64,000 bases of DNA from Frigoribacterium sp. ACAM 257 (GTDB lineage Bacteria > Actinomycetota > Actinomycetes > Actinomycetales > Microbacteriaceae): positions 868,001-932,000 of the forward strand of contig NZ_VOLO01000001.1 of NCBI RefSeq assembly GCF_007954365.1, in the 5' to 3' direction. Below, piece by piece: positions 18,665 through 26,199 of the stretch. Position numbers and translations under genes: made by a program. The first letter of the stretch is position 1. Each line of letters begins with the position of its first letter. The notes below the pieces were generated by a model. The model was not told the origin of the DNA. It did no database searches and was given only the letters and a program-made list of their open reading frames with translations.

Positions 18665-20005
18665 GTGAACTCGTCGCGTGCCTGGCTCGTCTGGGGCGCT
18701 GCCGTCCTCGCCTACGTCGTCGCCGTCCTGCAGCGCTCTTCGCTCGGCGTCTCCGGCGTCGAGGCGCAGCAGATCTTCGGCATCTCCGCGTCGACGCTGT
18801 CGACCCTGGCCGTCGTGCAGCTGGTCGTCTACGCGGGTCTGCAGATCCCGGTCGGCGTGCTGCTCGACCGGGTCGGACCCCGTGCGCTCATCGTGGCCGG
18901 CGGTGTCCTGCTCGTCGTCGGGCAGTCCGTCGTCGCGTTCGCGCCCCCGCACATCGGCGTGGCGATCGCCGGGCGCGTGCTCGTGGGAGCCGGCGACGCG
19001 ATGACCTTCATCAGCGTCATCCGCCTGCTGCCCGCGTGGTTCCGCGGGCCGATCCTGCCGCAGATCTCGCAGTGGACCGGCAACGTGGGGCAGCTCGGGC
19101 AGGTGCTCTCCGCCGTTCCGCTCTCGCTCGTCCTGCACGGCAGCGGATGGCGCCCGGCGTTCCTCGGCGCGGCGGGACTCTCCGTCGTGGCCGTCGTGCT
19201 CGTGGTCCTCGTCGTGCGCGACTCGCCCCTCGGCCGTCCCGCCGGGTCCGCCGGCACGACCTGGCGCGACGCCGGTCGTCAACTCGCGGAGAGCGTCCGG
19301 CGACCGGGCACTCGCCTCGGGTTCTGGTCCCACTTCGTGACCCAGTCGTCGGGGACCGTCTTCAGCCTGCTCTGGGGCGTGCCGTTCCTGGTCGGGGCCC
19401 TCGGGTTCTCCGCCGCACAGGCGTCCGGCATGCTCACGCTCCTCGTGGCCTCCGGCGTCGTCGCCGGCCCGGTCCTCGGACTCCTCACCGCGCGCTTCCC
19501 CCTGCGCCGCTCGAACCTCGTCCTCGGCATCGTCACGGCCCTCGGGATCACCTGGACCGTCGTGCTGGCATGGCCTGGACAGCCGCCGCACTGGCTGGCC
19601 TACGTCCTGGTGGTGGTGCTCGGCGTAGGCGGCCCCGGCAGCCTGATCGGCTTCGACTTCGCCCGTTCGTTCAACCCCGTCCGCAGTCTCGGCGTCGCGA
19701 ACGGCATCGTCAACGTCGGAGGGTTCCTGGCGAGCTTCGTGATGATGTTCCTCATCGGCGTGGTGCTCGACCAGCTCGACGCGACGCGGGTGGCCGGCGG
19801 GGGGACGAGCGACCTCTTCTCGTTCGACTCGTTCCGGATCGCCTTCCTCGTGCAGTACGTCGTCATCGGGGGAGGTGTCGTCGGGCTCGTCCTGGAGCGC
19901 AGGCGGACTCGGCGCCTGCTGCACCTCGAGGAGGGGATCCAGGTGGCGCCGCTGTGGGTCGCGCTCAACCGGAAGTGGCAGGCCCGGAGACGACGGAGTT
20001 CCTGA
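18665..20005 (+). CDS. Major facilitator superfamily transporter
   Basis: 446 residues with about 12 hydrophobic segments. After helix 2 comes the MFS loop [16 protein letters not shown] (variant of the GxxxDRxGxR motif), and the halves are joined by a basic loop around [18 protein letters not shown]. Substrate not evident. The GTG at 18665 is 6 nt after TAGGGT, indicating a leaderless transcript. The C-terminus is basic ([11 protein letters not shown]). Confidence 0.88.
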
Positions 20006-20237
20006 CGACGGGAGGGGACCGTGGTCGGCGTGGCCGACCAGACGTGCAATAATCGGAGTCGGACCCGTTCATGTCCCGTGCAGGTGCCCGACCCTCATCG
20101 GTGCGCTCGTCTGCGCGGACTTGACATGGGTCCTAGTACTGCCCGAAAGGCGCGGTGCTGCCCGCAAGGCCCGTGCGCTGCCCGACGAGACCAGTGCGCC
20201 CGGAAGACCCAGTGCAGATGAAGTGGAAGGTGTTCGC
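20006..20237 (+). promoter_or_regulatory. sigA upstream region
   Basis: 232 nt before sigA. Candidate promoter elements are CAATAAT near 20048-20053, a TTGACA at 20121-20126 and TAGTAC at 20134-20139, but no pair has normal spacing, so I cannot choose a promoter. The ribosome site GGAAGG lies just before ATG 20238. Confidence 0.4.
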
Positions 20238-21545
20238 ATGGCTACTCGCAGCAAGGCGACCACGGTCGTCGACGAGACCGTGACCGACGGCGCGGTGCTC
20301 GAGAACGAGCCCGCGACGACCGAGGAGGCGCCCTCGGCGCCCGAGAAGGCACCCGCCAAGCGGGCGCCCGCCAAGAAGGCGACCGCGGCGAAGGCGCCCG
20401 CCGCCAAGAAGGCGACACCGGCGAAGGCGGCACCCACCAAGGCGGCAGCCGCCAAGGCGGCGAAGGCGGCAGAGGCGGACGACGAGGCCGAGCCCGCCGA
20501 CGTCGACGCGGCAGACACCGATGCGGACGACGCCGGCGACAAGGCAGCAGCTCCTGAGGTGCTCCCCAAGGGCGCACTCGTCATCTCGCAGGACGACGAC
20601 GACGAGATGCCCGTCTACTCGACGACGATCACCGGTGCGACCGCCGACCCCGTCAAGGACTACCTGAAGCAGATCGGCAAGGTGGCCCTTCTGAACGCCG
20701 CCGAGGAGGTCGAGCTCGCCATGCGCATCGAGGCCGGTCTCTTCGCCGAGGACAAGCTCTCGAACAGCACGGGCCTCAGCAAGGAGCTCGAGCGCGAGCT
20801 CCGCTGGGTCTCCCGCGACGGCCAGCGAGCCAAGAGCCACCTCCTGGGTGCCAACCTGCGCCTGGTCGTCAGCCTCGCCAAGCGCTACACGGGCCGCGGC
20901 ATGCAGTTCCTCGACCTGATCCAGGAGGGCAACCTGGGCCTCATCCGTGCGGTCGAGAAGTTCGACTACACGAAGGGCTTCAAGTTCTCGACCTACGCCA
21001 CGTGGTGGATCCGCCAGGCCATCACCCGCGCCATGGCCGACCAGGCCCGCACCATCCGCATCCCCGTGCACATGGTCGAGGTCATCAACAAGCTCGCCCG
21101 CGTGCAGCGCCAGATGCTGCAGGACCTGGGTCGCGAGCCCACGCCCGAAGAGCTGAGCCGTGAGCTCGACATGACGCCCGAGAAGGTCGTCGAGGTCCAG
21201 AAGTACGGTCGCGAGCCCATCTCGCTGCACACCCCCCTCGGCGAGGACGGCGACAGCGAGTTCGGCGACCTCATCGAGGACACGGAGGCGGTCGTCCCCG
21301 CCGACGCCGTGGGCTTCACCATGCTGCAGAAGCAGCTCGAGTCGCTCCTCGACAGCCTGTCCGAGCGTGAGGCCGGCGTCATCCGCATGCGCTTCGGCCT
21401 CGGCGACGGCATGCCGAAGACGCTCGACCAGATCGGCGACACCTTCGGCGTCACGCGTGAGCGCATCCGCCAGATCGAGTCCAAGACGATGGCCAAGCTG
21501 CGCCACCCGTCCCGGTCGCAGTCGCTCCGCGACTACCTCGAGTAG
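20238..21545 (+). CDS. sigA: Principal RNA polymerase sigma factor (SigA/RpoD/HrdB type)
   Basis: 435 residues. An acidic and Lys/Ala/Pro-rich N-terminal extension (about 30-85 with repeated PAKK/AAKA units) precedes region 1.2 ([11 protein letters not shown]). Region 2 contains [42 protein letters not shown]. Region 3 follows, and region 4 contains the helix-turn-helix [20 protein letters not shown] ending in [15 protein letters not shown]. These are the marks of a group 1 sigma factor that directs housekeeping promoters. The start at ATG 20238 gives the usual MATRSK opening. murT begins 4 nt after the stop, so a joint transcript is likely. Confidence 0.97.
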
Positions 21546-21549
21546 GCCC

Positions 21550-22809
21550 GTGCGATACCTGTTGCCCGTGCTCGCGGGCCGTCTCGTCCGTGCGGTCGCG
21601 CGTCTCCGCGGCGGCGGCTCGGCCTATCCCGGCCGCACCGTCCTCGCGCTGGCGCCCGACTTCCTCACCCACGTCTCGTCCCAGTTCGAGCAGGGCGTCG
21701 TCTTCGTCCTCGGCTCGAACGGCAAGTCGACGACCACGATGATGCTGACCGAGACCCTGCGTGCCCACGGGCTGCGGGTCTTCACGAACCCCACCGGCGC
21801 CAACCTGCCGCAGGGAATCGCCTCGGCGTTCCTCCGCGAGGTGACGCCCTTCGGGAACGTCAAGCACCACATCGGCGTGATCGAGGTCGACGAGGCCTTC
21901 GCCGTCGAGCTCACCCGGTCGCTGCACCCGTCGACGGTGTTGATGCTCAACGTGCAGGTCGACCAGCTGTACCGCTTCTTCGAGACGGAGCGGGTGGGCA
22001 CGATGATGACGGACACCGCCGCCCTGGCCACCCGTGCCGTCGTGACGAACCGCGACGACCAGCACCTCGCGCCCTACGAGGCGCAGCCGGGCCAGACGGT
22101 CACCCGGTTCGGGGCTGCCGCCGACGTCGTCGCCGCTGCCCCCAACGGGCTGCAGAACGCTGACGACTTCTCCCGTGAGGCCGACGCCACGCGCCCCGTC
22201 GAGGCCGAGGTCGTGCGGATGGACGGCGACAGGGCGAGCATCCGTGTCGGCGAGTCCACGGTCGAGGTGCGGCTGCCCGCCCGTGGCCTGCACTACGCCG
22301 TCGACGCGGCCGCGGCACTGCAGACCGCGTCCGTCGTCCTCGGGCGGACCGTCGAGCAGGAGGCGGTGGCCCGCGCCTTCGACACGATGAAGCCCGCCTA
22401 CGGCCGGGGCGAGCGCATGTCGCTCGGCGCCGACGAGGCCGAGTTCATCATGTTCAAGAACGCGGCGAGCCTGCAGCTGAACCTCGACGCGCTCCCGCAG
22501 GACACGGAACAGGTCATGCTCGCGATCGACGAGGGCACGCCCGACATCTCGTGGATCTACGACATCGACTTCTCACGCCTCGACCATGTCGACGTGCTCG
22601 CCGGCGCCAAGGCGTGGCAGCTCGCACTGCGTCTCGAGCACGAGGGCATCCCCGTGCACGTGATCGAGGAGGACATCGCGAAGGCGATCAAGCTGATGAG
22701 GGCTCTGCCCTCGCCGAGCGACCGCACGAAGCACTTCGTCACGAACTACGAGCAGATGATGCTGGCCCGCCGCATCCTCGGCCACCCCGACCTGGAGAAG
22801 ACCGCGTGA
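21550..22809 (+). CDS. murT: MurT-like Mur ligase (lipid II isoglutaminyl synthase subunit), zinc-ribbon-less
   Basis: 419 residues from GTG 21550. Mur-ligase ATPase P-loop GSNGKSTTT at about 55-63, TGANLPQG, VIEVDEA, and the C-terminal DUF1727 part with DISWIYDIDF, where the catalytic Asp of MurT is expected. In characterised MurT/GatD pairs, MurT activates the alpha-carboxyl of D-Glu in lipid II with ATP and uses ammonia from GatD. The protein has no cysteine at all, so the Cys4 zinc ribbon found in S. aureus and S. pneumoniae MurT is absent. It overlaps gatD by 4 bp (GTGA). Its partner lacks glutaminase residues (see gatD), so the amine donor may differ. Confidence 0.88.
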   Translation: MRYLLPVLAGRLVRAVARLRGGGSAYPGRTVLALAPDFLTHVSSQFEQGVVFVLGSNGKSTTTMMLTETLRAHGLRVFTNPTGANLPQGIASAFLREVTPFGNVKHHIGVIEVDEAFAVELTRSLHPSTVLMLNVQVDQLYRFFETERVGTMMTDTAALATRAVVTNRDDQHLAPYEAQPGQTVTRFGAAADVVAAAPNGLQNADDFSREADATRPVEAEVVRMDGDRASIRVGESTVEVRLPARGLHYAVDAAAALQTASVVLGRTVEQEAVARAFDTMKPAYGRGERMSLGADEAEFIMFKNAASLQLNLDALPQDTEQVMLAIDEGTPDISWIYDIDFSRLDHVDVLAGAKAWQLALRLEHEGIPVHVIEEDIAKAIKLMRALPSPSDRTKHFVTNYEQMMLARRILGHPDLEKTA

Positions 22810-23561
22810 GCGCCGACACACTCCGCCTCGTCCACCTCTACCCCGAGCAGCTCGGCGTCAGCGGCGACCGGGGCAACGTGGCGACGCTCGTGGCGCGGGC
22901 CCGGCGGGCGGGGCTCGAGACGGAGGTCGTCGAGTACCGCGTGGGCGACGACGTGCCCACCGTGGCGGACGTCGTGCTCCTCGGGCACGGACCGCTCTCG
23001 GGAGTCCGCTCGGTCAGCGTCGACGCGCAGCGGCTCCTGCCCGCACTCGAGGGATTCGCCGCCTCAGGCGTCCCCGTGATCGGGGTCGGCGGCGGCATGG
23101 AGCTGTTGACCAAGGGCGTCGTCACCGAGCAGGGCGAGACCGTGCCCGGCATCGGGTTCTTCGACGCCACGGTGCGACGGGGCGCCCCGCGTCGGACGAA
23201 CTACTTCCAGGTGACGACGACCTACGGCGGGGACGAGCTGACCCTCTTCGGCTTCGAGGACCACGCCGCCCACCTCGAGCTCGGCGCCGGCGTCGAGGCC
23301 TTCGGTCGCGTGGTGCACGGTGGAGGCAACGGGACCGACGGCGCCGAGGGCGTCGTGCGCGGCGCCTCCTTCGGGACGCAGCTCAAGGGGCCGCTGCTGC
23401 CCCTCAACCCGGCGCTGAGCGACCGGGTGCTCCGCGCGGCGCTGACGCGTCGCAGCATCTCGTACCACGCGGGGGAGGCGCACGCGAAGCTCGACGAGTA
23501 CGCGGAGCAGTCGCAGCGGGTCATCCGTGAGAACCTCGAACGGGCCTTCAAGGCCATGTGA
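22806..23561 (+). CDS. gatD: GatD-like glutamine amidotransferase subunit, catalytic residues lost
   Basis: 251 residues, started at GTG 22806 inside the murT stop. The overall fold markers of the class I (CobB/CobQ-like) GatD family are present: LYPEQLGVSGDRGN, VVLLGHGPLSG, GIGFFD, and SFGTQLKGPLLPLNP. The nucleophile-elbow cysteine is replaced: the sequence reads VIGVGGGMELL, with Gly95 where family members have Cys (VCGGYQLL-like). The catalytic His is replaced by Lys194 in GTQLKGPLL, where GTYLHGPLL is usual. Glutamine hydrolysis by the known mechanism should therefore be impossible. The frame is intact and coupled to murT, so it is not an evident pseudogene. It may be a structural partner of MurT in a cell wall whose D-Glu is not amidated. 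Confidence 0.87.
   Translation: MSADTLRLVHLYPEQLGVSGDRGNVATLVARARRAGLETEVVEYRVGDDVPTVADVVLLGHGPLSGVRSVSVDAQRLLPALEGFAASGVPVIGVGGGMELLTKGVVTEQGETVPGIGFFDATVRRGAPRRTNYFQVTTTYGGDELTLFGFEDHAAHLELGAGVEAFGRVVHGGGNGTDGAEGVVRGASFGTQLKGPLLPLNPALSDRVLRAALTRRSISYHAGEAHAKLDEYAEQSQRVIRENLERAFKAM

Positions 23562-24102: not shown

Positions 24103-26199
<2,097 letters not shown>

Follow-up and report, generated by a model that had tools for sequence, protein, structure and literature searches.

A MurT-GatD pair without glutaminase residues in Frigoribacterium and a candidate role of its branch in B-type cell walls of Microbacteriaceae

The murT*-gatD* pair in its locus

The stretch of DNA analysed here, referred to as the window, covers 64,000 nucleotides of Frigoribacterium sp. 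ACAM 257 (contig NZ_VOLO01000001.1, positions 868,001 to 932,000). It carries two overlapping genes related to those of lipid II isoglutaminyl synthase, MurT/GatD, placed between a sigA-like and a parE/gyrB-type gene (Table 1). Members of the altered branch to which this pair belongs are marked MurT* and GatD*. A first-pass annotation of the window had described Gly95 of GatD in the place of the nucleophilic Cys, Lys194 in the place of the catalytic His, an intact frame and a GTGA overlap with murT, and these features were confirmed by the sequence and by alignment with Staphylococcus aureus. Both window proteins are devoid of cysteine. The pair passes the Pfam cut-offs for MurT_C, Mur_ligase_M and GATase_3, and the AlphaFold models of the two proteins have a mean predicted local distance difference test (pLDDT) value of 92 and 88. 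The modelled GatD* resembles the solved chain 6gs2_A with a template modelling (TM) score of 0.85, and MurT* resembles 9sq9_B with a TM score of 0.67. The NCBIfam equivalog scores of the pair are below cut-off (102 of 800 and 73 of 400 bits). This cut-off does not discriminate, since the one for GatD was reached by none of the genomes, Cys-bearing ones included, in a fixed draw of 199 Microbacteriaceae genomes that served as our family sample.

Table 1. Features of the window, and examples of the exchange module and the racemase pair at other loci (locus handle before the colon)
Feature	Position	Strand	Basis or remark
murT*, MurT-type ligase, 419 aa	21550..22809	+	Open reading frame (ORF) list, Pfam, motifs: P-loop GSNGKST, E112/D114/E115 and D332 kept; Y249 and D252 for the adenine-pocket Asn pair
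gatD*, GatD-type subunit, 251 aa, glutaminase nucleophile and histidine gone	22806..23561	+	ORF list, Pfam, alignment, fold
GTGA start/stop overlap, couples gatD* to murT*	22806..22809	+	
Gly95 codon GGC, site of S. aureus GatD catalytic Cys94	23088..23090	+	
Lys194 codon AAG, site of S. aureus GatD catalytic His189	23385..23387	+	
sigA-like ORF, left border of the slot	19875..21545	+	Own sequence and resemblance to sigA-cluster members at other loci; longest ORF, real start probably further downstream
parE/gyrB-type topoisomerase subunit, right border of the slot	24178..26199	+	Named in the same way as the sigA-like ORF; start may be further upstream
CofE-like + ATP-grasp module in the sigA-parE slot, example	L337:5056-6773		
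AlrS/AlrL pair, example	L257:8159-9951		
AlrS/AlrL pair, example	L337:6797-8589		
AlrS/AlrL pair, example	L274:6913-8696		

A pseudogene, a sequencing error and local decay were considered and rejected. The frames are open, and the Gly/Lys state (G/K, for the sites of Cys94 and His189) was found in 13 of 13 Frigoribacterium GatD sequences read, the window counted. Median ratios of nonsynonymous to synonymous substitution (dN/dS) in the genus were 0.19 for GatD and 0.14 for MurT (78 pairs each), indicating purifying selection; together with the constant G/K state, these low values mean that neither error nor decay accounts for the exchanged residues. Two metagenome-assembled genome records titled Frigoribacterium, L165 and L167, have G/G in GatD and adjacent genes for the split racemase AlrS/AlrL described below, unlike the 12 other Frigoribacterium records, and are probably misnamed. 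In profile searches of the window genome MurT_C was matched once, and so was the NCBIfam GatD model (E <= 0.001). No second MurT or complete GatD was found in this genome, where four further GATase_3 matches were weak (17-35 bits) with partial profile coverage.

The lack of zinc-ribbon cysteines in MurT had also been put forward as a sign of change. The lack as such is real, but it is not distinctive: outside the family, 19 of 26 intact MurT of the order have at most three cysteines, so that no Cys4 ribbon is possible in them, and we have abandoned it as a special sign. A zinc finger is reported from a subset of MurT only (PMC6113224).

A Cys-less branch within Microbacteriaceae

GatD was classified at 90 family loci of the draw, of which 23 have both catalytic residues (Cys/His), 65 are Cys-less, and two, with His for Cys, fall into a third class treated below. 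All of 14 extra family loci were Cys-less. Across eight further families of this order, Cys and His were intact at 26/26 loci. In a midpoint-rooted MurT tree of 88 rows, all from this family, the 63 rows with Cys-less GatD are placed on one branch with support 100/99, and the 23 Cys/His rows and two third-class rows lie off it. The branch is divided into sub-branches A, with 40 rows, and B, with 23 rows; genome counts given for B refer to 20 genomes, the sister rows L047, L086 and L089 being omitted. Loci with a genus name, 80 in total, comprise 47 Cys-less, 28 Cys/His and four third-class loci, and one that yielded no GatD. The Cys-less ones are 12 Frigoribacterium with G/K, 21 Curtobacterium with G/Q, six Rathayibacter with G/H and eight others, and the Cys/His ones are 24 Leucobacter (one with the frame in two pieces), two Canibacter and two Aurantimicrobium. 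The named and unnamed sets overlap, 16 unnamed loci being identical to named ones, and genus codes were set by identical DNA (g13 Leucobacter, g6 Canibacter, g55 Aurantimicrobium, g29 Curtobacterium, g41 Rathayibacter). G198, G032 and G153, which share the genus of the window, likewise have loci that match named Frigoribacterium records exactly. The window pair is a mark of a family-wide, functionally changed MurT-GatD branch. A Cys/His and a Cys-less pair are present together in five genomes (G050, G113, G060, G149 and G189), so the two kinds need not be redundant. A strongly reduced genome, G013, probably Tropheryma whipplei, has retained a Cys-less pair (L096), to which an AlrL-like gene adjoins.

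Conserved sites were counted after removal of L001/L002, six third-class rows and identical rows, and for GatD also of rows gapped at either catalytic site. Among distinct GatD sequences, Cys was present in 74, all 74 of which have His, and 120 were Cys-less; the classes were divided by Cys itself, so the 120 is a count and not a test. His was kept in 58 of the Cys-less 120, hence Cys is the consistent loss and His a variable one. The stretch that contacts MurT is retained in GatD*, with G195 and P202 in 120/120 and N201 in 119/120, as the catalytic site drifts.

In MurT*, the residues of ATP binding and activation by which the characterised MurT/GatD is recognised are largely kept. The P-loop Lys K59 and E112, D114, E115, D138, R142, R286 and D332 are invariant in 121/121 sequences; K59 and E112/E115 stand for the P-loop Lys and Mg2+-binding Glu of MurT, and D332 for the triad Asp D349 of S. 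aureus. The adenine-pocket Asn pair is not kept. Canonical MurT (n=72) has Asn at columns 249 and 252 in 94% and 100%, respectively, and MurT* has Tyr or Phe at 249 in 113/121 and Asp at 252 in 118/121, the window having Y249 and D252; the columns of S. aureus N267 and of D349 were assigned by motif match. Near-invariant sites new in MurT* are N311 (121/121), an acidic residue at 401 (120/121) and S307 (119/121). On the GatD side the catalytic Cys is absent from the partners of all 63 rows of the branch, with G95 in the window, where the catalytic His is also replaced, by K194.

The sigA-parE slot and its occupants

The position of the pair is fixed. In 42 wide loci, hand-picked at one per genome with 11 from genus g78 (probably Microbacterium), it follows sigA without exception; parE lies downstream in 39, and none is visible within the stretch read in the other three. 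Among the named loci, sigA or parE was found in the flank of 46/47 Cys-less loci versus 0/28 Cys/His loci. In a Leucobacter genome of genus g13 (L256, G012) the canonical murT-gatD adjoins trmD-like and rimM-like genes, named by eye, and is away from sigA and parE. The third MurT-GatD class is also situated between sigA and parE and has His or Gln for Cys and Leu or Ile for His. It is represented by four distinct records, L139 (= L081), L158 (= L083), L157 and L175; L081 and L083 are the two that were read of 13 weak MurT matches, and L157 and L175 are further named records.

MurT gave a strong match in 151, a weak match in 13 and no match in 35 of the family genomes. A strong match to a CofE-like protein (E < 1e-110) was found in 28/199 genomes, all of them among the 35 without MurT and none among the 151 with strong MurT (Fisher p = 1.6e-21 over 199 genomes, kinship ignored). 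Weaker CofE-like matches occur in G049, G112 and G134, the last of which has MurT. Genus g78 has MurT in 21/119 genomes. Both states were observed within eight genera, so the swap must have taken place repeatedly. Taken together, 192/199 genomes have a MurT-like or CofE-like gene, 18 of these reading as Cys/His only, Leucobacter included. Twelve loci of MurT-less genomes were inspected (L334-L345, six of the genomes belonging to the draw): sigA together with the CofE-like gene was seen in 10, an ATP-grasp gene in 11, and AlrS/AlrL with parE in all 12, although the loci had been picked for holding AlrS/AlrL and the adjacency of the racemase is therefore selected. The CofE-like protein matches PF01996 with 38-48 bits (two proteins scanned) and the ATP-grasp protein belongs to PF14397 (three scanned), for which a sequence search of the PDB gave no useful relative. 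CofE links an amino acid to a carboxyl, and many ATP-grasp proteins catalyse ligations of this sort. If these two genes can stand in for MurT*-GatD*, the simplest reaction that the modules would share is ligation of an amino acid and not amidation.

A split alanine racemase-type gene pair is a frequent neighbour. AlrS and AlrL, in the same or the opposite direction, lie between gatD* and parE in 19/42 wide loci, nine of them from g78, and in one further wide locus AlrS is 6.6 kb away. At the positions which we take to be the catalytic ones, AlrS (about 235 aa) has the Tyr in 37/37 rows and the pyridoxal phosphate (PLP) Lys in 0/37, and AlrL (about 370 aa) has the PLP Lys in 37/38 rows, the Tyr being gone; the exception, L287, is an AlrS filed under AlrL by score. 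Because the losses are complementary, the two look like halves of a heterodimer that would share one composite active site. No report of a heterodimeric racemase was found in the open-licence literature searched. At least two Ala_racemase_C matches were present in 36/40 branch-A genomes, 2/20 branch-B genomes and 1/18 Cys/His-only genomes. The number of such matches was rejected as a simple marker of MurT*, as in g78 at least three occur in 71/98 MurT-less and in 19/21 MurT genomes.

Proposed function, rival explanations and related systems

We consider it probable that MurT*-GatD* is an ATP-dependent amide ligase that arose from lipid II isoglutaminyl synthase and joins the first residue of the B-type bridge to D-Glu. 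The observed basis is loss of Cys in a whole branch, retention of the activation residues of MurT, purifying selection, the fixed slot and replacement by other ligase-like modules. From these we infer the use of ATP, the target carboxyl, the amine and a role in wall building. MurT* would bind ATP and activate a carboxyl. The likeliest target is position 2 of the lipid-linked stem, where D-Glu (or 3-hydroxy-Glu) offers its alpha-carboxyl. GatD* would make no ammonia, yet the ligase would still depend on it, either for its structure or for binding of the amine. An amino acid would serve as nucleophile, namely the residue with which the interpeptide bridge begins; an extra Alr-type racemase may often supply it as a D-diamino acid. 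In-place exchange with ligase-like genes and the adjoining racemase point to an amino acid as the group most likely ligated to D-Glu, probably the first bridge residue. The first-pass annotation had suggested a modified ligase with GatD as structural subunit, and its mechanism is the leading one, strengthened by Cys loss across the branch and by the invariant ATP site of MurT, and independently supported by the exchange with the CofE-like and ATP-grasp genes beside a racemase pair. Somewhat more doubtful, with the chances slightly against it, is a wider proposal: that the sigA-parE slot holds the starter enzyme of the B-type bridge in three interchangeable forms (MurT*-GatD*, the third class, and CofE-like plus ATP-grasp), with AlrS-AlrL often supplying the D-diamino acid and GatD turned into an amine-binding or structural protein.

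In a B-type wall the bridge is borne on the alpha-carboxyl of D-Glu, and the residue adjoining D-Glu is often a D-diamino acid. The wall of Frigoribacterium is presumably B2beta with D-Lys, for which no confirmation was found in the open-licence literature searched, nor was an enzyme joining a B-type bridge to D-Glu found reported there. An extra Mur ligase as general bridge enzyme was rejected: the six Mur_ligase_M matches of the window genome are taken, by position and score, for MurC-F, FolC and MurT*. In L251-L254 (G440, G444, G001 and G096; genera g78 and g2) a murE-like gene lies apart from the other mur ligase genes, unlike in the window genome and G031, the labels being given by score and place. 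For other genera, the wall is given as B2beta with D-2,4-diaminobutyrate (D-Dab) in Rhodoluna (PMC4156110), as B2gamma in Subtercola (PMC5945732) and as B-type in Leucobacter (PMC4511665, PMC4804768).

Several observations weigh against a role in the first bridge bond. Leucobacter has Cys/His in 24/24 named loci, among them L146 and L148, from strains with a measured B-type wall (PMC4804768), and each of its four genomes in the draw gave a single MurT match and none to the CofE-like protein. Canibacter and Aurantimicrobium likewise show intact pairs only. Either another enzyme acts in Leucobacter, or the module does not form the first bridge bond. The expectation of the first-pass annotation that loss of Cys and His would track with B-type peptidoglycan is therefore not borne out in that form: intact residues are the usual state in B-type Leucobacter, which for this genus is an outcome that the annotation had itself named as refuting, and His is often kept in Cys-less GatD. 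A second complete GatD in the genome, also named there as refuting, was not found. Cys-less pairs and B-type walls do not correspond strictly. Neither MurT nor a CofE-like protein was found in 7/199 genomes. If a B-type wall is taken as usual in the family, the 35/199 genomes without a MurT match mean that such a wall does not need a MurT-GatD pair, and the idea that all B-type species need MurT*-GatD* was rejected on these genomes and on Leucobacter. As to the chemistry, the N267Y exchange kills S. aureus MurT, and with both adenine-pocket Asn replaced the use of ATP by MurT* is less than certain. The match of the slot protein to CofE is modest, under the NCBIfam cut-off and with no solved relative by phmmer, so its activity can only be presumed. 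As to the racemase, the extra Alr is mostly missing in branch B (e.g., Rathayibacter), and in Frigoribacterium the pair has no racemase beside it; the window genome has a second full-length Alr-like gene elsewhere, in tandem behind alr. The racemase pair also occurs without MurT, and is therefore a neighbour in the slot, not an exclusive partner of MurT*.

A similar amide ligase that acts on another carboxyl or another envelope polymer, and not at the first bridge position, would fit the same genomic evidence and would be in line with B-type Leucobacter having neither a Cys-less module nor a CofE-like protein. We still regard it as unlikely, as the nearest characterised family acts on D-Glu of lipid II (PMC6113224, PMC3266927), and a MurT-like or CofE-like gene is nearly general in the family.

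Rather improbable is an isoglutaminyl synthase that amidates D-Glu from free ammonia with GatD* as scaffold only. The MurT core is conserved as it would demand, but exchange with CofE-like and ATP-grasp genes and the adjoining racemase would be left unexplained, and the alpha-carboxyl in a B-type wall already bears the bridge. In S. aureus, GatD-C94G abolished the use of glutamine and the pair still amidated lipid II with ammonia at pH 8.5; ammonia was, however, unused at pH 7.5, and MurT without GatD was inactive (PMC3266927). A C94G-like pair would by this chemistry be a ligase drawing its amine from elsewhere.

We give little credence to a catalytically dead regulatory pair kept as scaffold. 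The lost GatD site and the replacement of both adenine-pocket Asn in nearly all MurT* would agree with it, but the invariant P-loop Lys, E112/D114/E115 and D332 would not, and a swap with unrelated ligase-like genes is not expected of a scaffold. An ordinary glutamine-dependent synthase with a displaced nucleophile is hardly credible, for although fold and MurT contact motif are retained, the two window proteins lack cysteine altogether, and both C94G and C94S of S. aureus GatD were dead with glutamine (PMC3266927, PMC6113224).

B-type cross-linking has been in taxonomic use for decades, and for the joining of the bridge to D-Glu candidate genes can now be named. Besides the bridge ligase proposed here, they include a replacement that is not homologous to it and a racemase that probably acts on amino acids, so that the question can be tested directly. 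A further suggestion is that a glutamine amidotransferase has changed its nucleophile and retained its glutaminase subunit.

The closest known system is lipid II isoglutaminyl synthase MurT/GatD (S. aureus 6gs2, S. pneumoniae 6fqb, S. pyogenes 9sq9). The window pair has both folds, the gene order, the phosphate-binding loop (P-loop) and Mg2+ residues and the triad-completing Asp (D332) in common with it, and differs by the lack of Cys and His, the replaced adenine-pocket Asn pair and the fixed sigA-parE slot. With the Mur ligases MurC-MurF the proposed reaction would share an ATP-activated carboxyl of the stem and an amino acid or dipeptide as nucleophile. MurT is without the UDP-binding N-terminal domain of these enzymes (PMC6113224), and MurT* has a GatD partner. 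CofE, the F420-0:glutamate ligase family (PF01996), and ATPgrasp_ST (PF14397) are families of ligase type that occupy this slot where MurT*-GatD* is missing; the folds of MurT*-GatD* are unrelated to theirs, and the slot protein resembles characterised CofE only modestly. A glutaminase fold without nucleophile is likewise found in inactive class I glutaminase homologues that are kept as partners of other proteins, whereas the exchange partners in the slot point here to a changed nucleophile and not to regulation alone.

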